The notes beneath the pieces are model-generated. The model made no database searches, was not told where the DNA came from, and was given only the letters and a program-made list of their open reading frames with translations. Shown in pieces: positions 28,479 to 29,205 of a stretch of 44,195 nucleotides of DNA. The stretch covers positions 1 through 44,195 of the forward strand of contig JAUSIP010000008.1 in NCBI GenBank assembly GCA_030648005.1, in the 5' to 3' direction. Source of the stretch: a bacterium. Its GTDB lineage: Bacteria; Patescibacteriota; Minisyncoccia; Phycocordibacterales; UBA12445. A program made the position numbers and the translations under genes. The stretch's first letter is position 1. Each line of letters begins with the position of its first letter.

Positions 28479-28507
28479 ACTACTTGGAAGCTAAGCGTCC
28501 AAGTAGT
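28479..28507. repeat. REP-like palindrome, upstream copy
   Basis: ACTACTTGGA (28479-28488) and TCCAAGTAGT (28498-28507) around AGCTAAGCG, the reverse of the GCTTAGC centre. Its last base is the first base of the TATAAT promoter. Confidence 0.85.
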
Positions 28508-28518
28508 ATAATCTCACA
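28507..28518 (+). promoter_or_regulatory. Leaderless-type -10 of the RAYT gene
   Basis: TATAAT (28507-28512) ends 6 nt before ATG 28519; it touches the upstream palindrome, which could affect expression. Confidence 0.7.
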
Positions 28519-29175
28519 ATGAGAAAAATTACGTTTGAAGTAGGTGAGTATTATCATGCCTATAATAGGGGAGTTGATAAGCGGAATATAGTACAGGAAG
28601 AATATGACAGCGAACGTTTTTTACAAGCTCTAATAGAATTCAATGTGGTCGAACCAATCGGCAGTATATATGAAAACTCATTTAGAAAGGATCAACTTGG
28701 AAGCTTAGCTTCCAAGTCAGAGAAATTGGTGAATGTAGTCTGTTATTGTTTAAATCCGAACCATTTTCACTTACTGCTTGAGCAGATTGTTGAAAAGGGA
28801 ATTGAGAGATTTTTGCATAAACTAAGTACTGGGCATGCAAAATATTTTAATAAAAAATATAAGAGATCCGGGTCATTATTTGAAGGAACTTTCAAGGCCA
28901 AACATGTCTCTAGTAACGACTATCTTCAGTATCTTAGTGCTTATATAAATTTGAATAATAGAGTCCATCAGATAGAAGGGGAGGTGTCGAAACTAGTTCG
29001 ATCAAGCTGGGAGGAATATTTAGGAAATAAAGAACCAATTTGTCATAAAGATATAGTTCTGGATCAGTTTAGCAGTGCCAAAGAATACGCAAGATACTGT
29101 ATGGAAACATTGCCAATTCTGATAGAGAACAAAGCCCTCGCTAAGGAGCTACAGAATCTCGGCTTCGAAGAATAA
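28519..29175 (+). CDS. REP-associated tyrosine transposase (Y1/HUH, IS200-like)
   Basis: 218 residues, the usual size of RAYT proteins. It nicks and joins single-stranded DNA. The HUH metal motif is His82-Phe-His84 (NPNHFHLLLEQ); the motif GSLFEGTFKAKHV (about 118-130) and the tyrosine-bearing helix YLQYLSAYINLN (about 135-146) with the candidate nucleophile are typical of TnpA_REP. The N-terminal YYHAYNRGVDKRNI matches the family start. A perfect palindrome (28695-28717) lies in frame and encodes LGSLASK, so the transposase gene itself carries the repeat it may mobilise. Confidence 0.9.
   Translation: MRKITFEVGEYYHAYNRGVDKRNIVQEEYDSERFLQALIEFNVVEPIGSIYENSFRKDQLGSLASKSEKLVNVVCYCLNPNHFHLLLEQIVEKGIERFLHKLSTGHAKYFNKKYKRSGSLFEGTFKAKHVSSNDYLQYLSAYINLNNRVHQIEGEVSKLVRSSWEEYLGNKEPICHKDIVLDQFSSAKEYARYCMETLPILIENKALAKELQNLGFEE
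28695..28717. repeat. REP-like palindrome inside the transposase gene
   Basis: Arms of 11 nt (ACTTGGAAGCT / AGCTTCCAAGT) around a single T; perfect, centre GCTTAGC. Confidence 0.9.
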
Positions 29176-29182
29176 TTTATAT

Positions 29183-29205
29183 ACTTGGACGCTTAGCGTC
29201 CAAGT
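29183..29205. repeat. REP-like palindrome, downstream copy
   Basis: Arms of 11 nt (ACTTGGACGCT / AGCGTCCAAGT) around a single T; differs from the internal copy by a compensated A-T to C-G pair on each arm. Confidence 0.9.

Follow-up and report, generated by a model that had tools for sequence, protein, structure and literature searches.

A RAYT-like nuclease gene of Patescibacteria with matched palindromes in its promoter, within its coding sequence and past its stop codon

Results

The gene and the palindromes at the locus

The window analysed here is a whole stretch of 44,195 nucleotides (contig JAUSIP010000008.1 of GenBank assembly GCA_030648005.1, positions 1 to 44,195 of the forward strand) from a bacterium of the GTDB lineage Patescibacteriota; Minisyncoccia; Phycocordibacterales; UBA12445, and it carries a RAYT-like gene together with the palindromes and promoter elements collected in Table 1. 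The initial annotation had called this gene a RAYT transposase, and both domain and fold bear the name out. The protein scores 32.1 bits against PF01797 (Y1_Tnp), above the cut-off of 23; its predicted structure has a mean pLDDT of 93.6, Foldseek ranked 4er8, the E. coli RAYT-REP complex, first among solved folds, and VIA-align with 4er8 gave Z 14.0 over 152 aligned residues at 2.9 A, the runner-up reaching Z 9.5. H82 and H84 of the HUH motif are without variation in an alignment of 89 sequences, as is Y142, which we take to be the catalytic tyrosine. Against the NCBIfam RAYT model NF047646, by contrast, the protein scores 17.4 bits and three of its relatives 20.9-26.1 bits, far under the curated cut-off of 80, and it is remote from canonical RAYTs. 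Its named relatives, among the best 80 of 533, are Patescibacteria, chiefly Parcubacteria (Vogel-, Giovannoni-, Yonath- and Moranbacteria). The same genome holds three homologues in total, the other two (L008 at C8:817-1464 and L009 at C17:22772-23401) sharing 53% and 40% identity with the window gene and each having a palindrome type of its own.

Table 1. Features of the RAYT-like locus, in window coordinates
Feature	Position	Strand	Remarks
Upstream palindrome	28479..28507 (23-bp core 28482-28504)		a single A.G mismatch; situated between the -35-like and -10 boxes and overlapping them
-35-like hexamer TTGGAA	28484..28489	+	made by the left arm of the upstream palindrome
-10-like box TATAAT	28507..28512	+	17 bp past the -35-like hexamer, 6 bp before the ATG
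RAYT-like Y1/HUH nuclease gene	28519..29175	+	218 aa, intact
Internal palindrome, site 63	28695..28717	+	in frame, with its centre at the second base of a codon
Second internal site, residue 155	28971..28993	+	palindrome in 70 of 154 relatives
Downstream palindrome	29183..29205		begins 8 bp past the stop codon

All three palindromes that had been noted upstream of, inside and downstream of the gene were located, and a search of the window for CTTGGANGCTWAGCNTCCAAG with at most 3 mismatches returned 3 matches where shuffles led us to expect 0.02. The internal copy is read in frame, as had been proposed, and codes for QLGSLASKS, which in the predicted structure forms a loop between the helix at 50-59 and the strand at 71-78; at the residue-155 site the window gene has no recognisable palindrome. 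The suggestion that the arms vary in a compensated way held for the internal copy (A-T) and the downstream copy (C-G) and failed for the upstream copy, which is a hybrid of the two with its single A.G mismatch. Further copies exist in the genome, with CTTGGANGCTWAGCNTCCAAG found at 6 places, 3 of them away from the window gene, and a wider pattern found at 11 places, again with 3 at the gene.

Palindromes at the gene across the clade

Homologous loci were assembled from 80 places hand-picked among the order-wide matches listed, from loci returned by searches and from the best 80 of 533 named relatives. The resulting 214 loci gave 194 unique coding sequences, of which 154 at >=160 bits were counted and 40 set aside. 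A palindrome copy of some kind accompanies 139 of these 154 Patescibacteria genes and at least one internal copy is found in 112, with upstream copies at 115, downstream copies at 107, and internal copies at site 63 in 83 and at residue 155 in 70. Within the coding sequences we counted 166 palindromes against a mean of 7.3 and a maximum of 14 in 20 codon shuffles, and only 11 of the 166 lie away from residues 63 and 155. Chance palindromes were ruled out by these codon-shuffled relatives and by the window shuffles, and the pattern at this RAYT-like gene is real, strong and widespread. Some of the 40 distant homologues set aside also have palindromes, at residues 58-66 and with other arm sequences.

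The internal copies keep one reading phase, with the centre on the middle base of a codon in 82 of 85 cases at site 63 and 68 of 70 at site 155 (150 of 155 together). Centres of the form T..A read TTA or TCA in 48 internal copies and TAA or TGA in only 3, all of them out of that phase, whereas flanking copies show 36 and 37; since the internal centres avoid the stop orientation and the flanks do not, the internal copies are translated. They are not essential, as 42 of 154 genes show none at our threshold. Genes with and without a palindrome hardly differ in the length of the segment that holds it (median 17 versus 16 residues at site 63, p 0.013; 16 versus 16 at site 155, p 0.10), and this near length-neutrality would also follow from an old insertion that had decayed without deletion.

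As most relatives of the gene are flanked by palindromes (both flanking copies in 96 of 154 genes, with a same-gene identity of 0.957), one could suppose an IS200-like mobile unit bounded by the two flanking palindromes, upstream and downstream, in which the internal copies are accidental. The catalytic fold is indeed shared with the IS608 and ISDra2 transposases, and IS200/IS605 elements likewise have palindromes near both ends. We nevertheless regard such a unit as very improbable, given that the two ends have no outer sequence in common, that the homologues in the genome, at 53% and 40% identity, give no sign of a fresh or recent whole-unit copy, and that the internal palindromes, whose two sites set the locus apart from IS200/IS605, are too regular for accidents.

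Copies within one gene match and change together

Comparison of the copies revealed that those of one gene resemble each other (identity 0.93-0.96) far more than those of different genes (0.57-0.64), for all six pairs of sites, with a same-gene identity that none of 5000 permutations reached. From one site to another, identity drops from 0.78-0.92 at positions +-10-11 to 0.34-0.57 at +-12-13, and because it thus ends 11 bases from the centre we take the unit to be 23 bp long. We infer that the outer CTTGG/CCAAG is the clade-wide part and that the inner bases are the gene-specific part. Beyond the unit, the arms at +-12-13 are often complementary (0.5-0.8), yet locus-specific and unshared across sites.

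Among genes with at least 3 copies, 64 of 84 are uniform in the type of their inner arms. This type has changed at least 88 times on the tree of 139 genes, compared with a mean of 112 after shuffling, which indicates that types are partly inherited. Related pairs illustrate the change: L058 and L161 share 75% identity outside the sites, and at each of their four palindromes a change in one arm is matched by a change in the other, with the internal copies aligning without gaps; in L094 and L116, 84% identical, the palindromes are entirely different. The internal palindrome had been open to dismissal as normal coding sequence of all orthologues, and it is not that, for orthologues have at the same place a different sequence that matches their own flanks. 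Conserved coding sequence was ruled out on these grounds, the arms varying among orthologues and agreeing with each gene's own flanks.

The upstream copy as part of the promoter

In the window the last base of the upstream palindrome is the first base of TATAAT. The initial annotation had remarked on this contact with the -10 box, and it is no accident of the window, as a TATAAT (5/6 or better) recurs at a distance of exactly 14 bp from the upstream copy's centre in 37 of the 113 relatives with full flanks, against a mean of 2.9 and a maximum of 10 in shuffles and only 2 and 6 genes at offsets 13 and 15. A -35-like hexamer with TTGG lies inside the upstream palindrome at a 17-bp spacing to TATAAT, and the start codon follows the box by 6-7 bases in 28 of these 37 genes. 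Dispersed copies have TATAAT at the same offset in just 1 of 138 strand-wise windows. Downstream copies have it in 10 of 107 cases, some of which may be promoters of the next gene. Judging from this layout, the upstream copy is an operator-like dyad in a probably leaderless promoter, and is itself probably not transcribed. Self-repression by the gene's own product through this copy is our inference, and there are no repression data.

Such a layout bears on whether the palindromes could instead be RNA stem-loops that steer how the RAYT message is translated or how stable it is. Each of the four sites is at the transcript or close to it, and translation effects on mRNA are cited for IS200 transposases (PMC3733652, in the part available). 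With the -10 box 3' of that upstream copy, however, and with the start codon 6-7 bp beyond the box in 28 of 37 such genes, the copy should lie outside the transcript. Stem mismatches on the sense strand, moreover, number 13 GT and 18 AC, and because G.U-type mismatches are thus not in excess, a role in DNA rather than RNA is favoured. With mismatch types and promoter layout both against them, RNA hairpins are not favoured, and we think them quite unlikely.

Dispersed copies and their host genes

We evaluated the clade pattern across genomes, and the palindromes behave as repeats of the RAYT, as had been expected from copies elsewhere in its own genome. Of 40 RAYT-bearing genomes, 37 were positive, with 351 copies including those at the RAYT genes, and the reversed-pattern control gave 0 copies in the same 40; of 20 genomes without a detected homologue, 2 were positive, with 3 copies. 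In G118, dispersed copies far from the gene share the type of that genome's RAYT.

Gene contexts were read for only some of the copies in 6 genomes, together with a single locus from each genome, and 31 of the 70 dispersed copies so examined sit in open reading frames of >=190 codons, in phases 15/8/8. In the window's own genome this holds for 7 of 8 dispersed copies, with hosts GlmS, ComEC, RsmA, RsmE, a lamin-tail-domain protein and FemAB (two copies), and 1 of the 8 has the exact arms of the window gene's internal copy. Hosts elsewhere include UvrA, UvrC, uracil-DNA glycosylase (UDG), RNase HII, the DNA polymerase III alpha subunit and a XerD-like integrase, a set in line with the published bias of intragenic REPs to repair genes (PMC3733652, as far as its accessible text goes). 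Palindrome pairs about 31-35 bp apart, with the frame reading through both, were seen in a FemAB-like gene (L253, 1501-1556) and in a TsaD-like gene (L243, 1501-1552), the latter pair being of different types and located in a region without alignment to solved TsaD.

Since the dispersed copies use all phases and the RAYT copies one, each internal site of the RAYT looks ancestral. This contrast also weighs on the reading that the palindromes are tolerated selfish insertions, REP-like repeats that landed by chance in two permissive loops of the RAYT, have no function there, and match through repeated copying from one active source. Intragenic REPs are already known (PMC3733652, available in part), the dispersed copies are in frame in many unrelated host genes, and the site-63 loop is of lower confidence in the predicted model, as a free loop would be. 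Occupation of the same two positions in one phase would be unexpected, however, and chance landing predicts neither the near absence of length change nor the joint change of arms at four places, so we hold this reading to be unlikely, if still worth keeping in view.

Replacement and insertion in host genes

Within one bacterial family, the UDG gene (L296-L299) lacks the palindrome in G118 and G165 and has it as one type in G047 and as another in G201, both types occupying the same codons and the length being unchanged across all four genomes; at this place G118 has CTTGGATTATCAATTCCAAA, a quasi-palindrome CTTGGA...TCCAAA. With sister species that differ in type and two relatives without the palindrome, UDG is a natural test site for REP replacement. 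The RsmE genes of three genomes from two genera have, at a shared position, palindromes or near-palindromes that differ in type, and RsmA has different palindromes at the same spot in G000 and G002 and none in G003 and G004. A similar precedent is recB, in which two Xanthomonas species have different REPs at about the same site (PMC3733652, available text). For GlmS, no orthologue for an empty-site comparison was found at E 1e-30 in 4 other genomes of the family.

Lengths were compared with the nearest solved homologues, or within the family for UDG, and the alignments were judged by eye. Half of the 10 host loci differ by 0-3 residues (UDG, copper ATPase, RsmA, RsmE and GlmS) and half by at least 5 (XerD, RsmA of G018, pseudouridine synthase, RNase HII and TsaD), and replacement and insertion therefore both seem to occur. 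At the DNA level, length-neutral overwriting is shown for one host gene only, UDG. Pure insertion into empty sites was rejected as the general mode on the unchanged length of UDG, and is still not excluded at loci with extra residues.

These host genes also bear on a concerted evolution in which the RAYT takes no active part, near-identical palindromes a few hundred bases apart being homogenised by template switching or gene conversion at the replication fork, with the nuclease following by selection. The outer arms at +-12-13, complementary yet unshared, are as local self-templated extension of a palindrome would leave them, and the title of a 1988 REP review includes "Evolution by gene conversion?". 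Set against this are the G118 copies that carry the RAYT's type far from the gene and the two UDG genes of one genus with two REP types at the same place, and we consider it doubtful that homogenisation proceeds without the RAYT.

Discussion

In vitro, RAYTs are reported to cleave REP hairpins and to join them, nuclease and REP are reported to co-evolve (both PMC8266576, in the portion available), and a RAYT flanked by two REPs is part of the founding description (PMC2817692, likewise in part). The system described here resembles such REPtrons, or TnpA_REP systems (E. coli; group 3 of Stenotrophomonas and Marinomonas), in its palindrome-flanked Y1/HUH gene, its dispersed cognate repeats and its co-evolution, and resembles the group 3 REPtrons in its perfect palindromes, as these systems are portrayed in the available sections of PMC8266576. 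Its fold is that of the E. coli RAYT in 4er8. Unlike a REPtron, it has palindromes at two fixed in-frame coding sites and one built into the promoter, lacks both a GTAG tag and a fixed (inverted) flank orientation, and is low in copy number. Short in-frame palindromes in many genes, repair and replication genes included, also recall intragenic REPs and the Rickettsia palindromic elements (PMC3733652, partial text); here, however, the cognate nuclease is its own host gene in most of the clade, and the copies change with its flanks, and there is no conserved tag at or beyond +-12 like the CGTC end tag that the accessible part of that paper gives for the Rickettsia elements. Within the open-licence literature, preprints excluded, no description came to light of a RAYT whose coding sequence contains its cognate palindromes, or of a REP serving as a RAYT promoter.

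The explanation towards which we lean, with modest confidence, is a variant REPtron, in which the palindromes are cognate REP-like targets kept matched by REP-for-REP rewriting and the promoter copy mediates self-repression. A RAYT-like HUH nuclease would be paired with a cognate 23-bp palindrome, RCTTGG-N11-CCAAGY, held at up to four fixed places (the promoter, two stretches of the open reading frame that encode surface loops, and past the stop codon), and would recognise it as a hairpin or a dyad. With drift in the type recognised, the new type would overwrite resident palindromes, among them the two in the nuclease's own coding sequence, whether through nuclease-assisted strand exchange or through template switching at the replication fork; in its simplest form the model has one REP swapped for another, either by the nuclease or by fork template switching at the nuclease's targets. 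Copies at the gene itself would stay matched because unmatched ones would be lost as targets and as operator, and binding of the nuclease at the promoter copy would repress the gene. That the RAYT is the agent of the matching is inferred, in the absence of binding or cutting data for the protein.

How the palindrome might be recognised is suggested by two null results. Upstream and downstream copies show no preference in relative orientation (same in 46, opposite in 45, tie in 2), and no GTAG-like tag was seen in 222 flanking copies oriented by their centre, where information at or beyond +-12 is at most about 0.3 bit. Without strand polarity or a guide tag, recognition may be of a symmetric dyad and not of a one-strand hairpin as in E. 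coli, and E. coli-style strand-specific cleavage is unsupported. Because tag, orientation and NCBI cut-off all fail, we do not file the system as a canonical RAYT/GTAG-REP pair; it is REPtron-like in its working, yet not such a pair.

A bolder possibility, to which we give little credence, is that specificity is self-encoded: as the target palindrome both codes for two loops of the nuclease and makes up its promoter, one overwriting event would alter target, operator and two protein loops at once. If true, recognition, expression and target population would switch as a unit, which would amount to a self-rewriting recognition code.

How REPs spread, and how RAYT and REP come to match, is an open question according to PMC8266576 (in the part available). 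The clade described here offers many natural replicates of joint change in nuclease and target, with positional controls within one 0.8-kb locus, and these replicates and built-in controls make the recognition determinants and the copying mechanism directly testable. Across this large group of uncultured bacteria one short DNA word is at once part of a promoter, coding sequence and a probable target of the nuclease, and these roles are kept in step. That all copies change together suggests a joint rewriting of the enzyme's target, its switch and its protein code.
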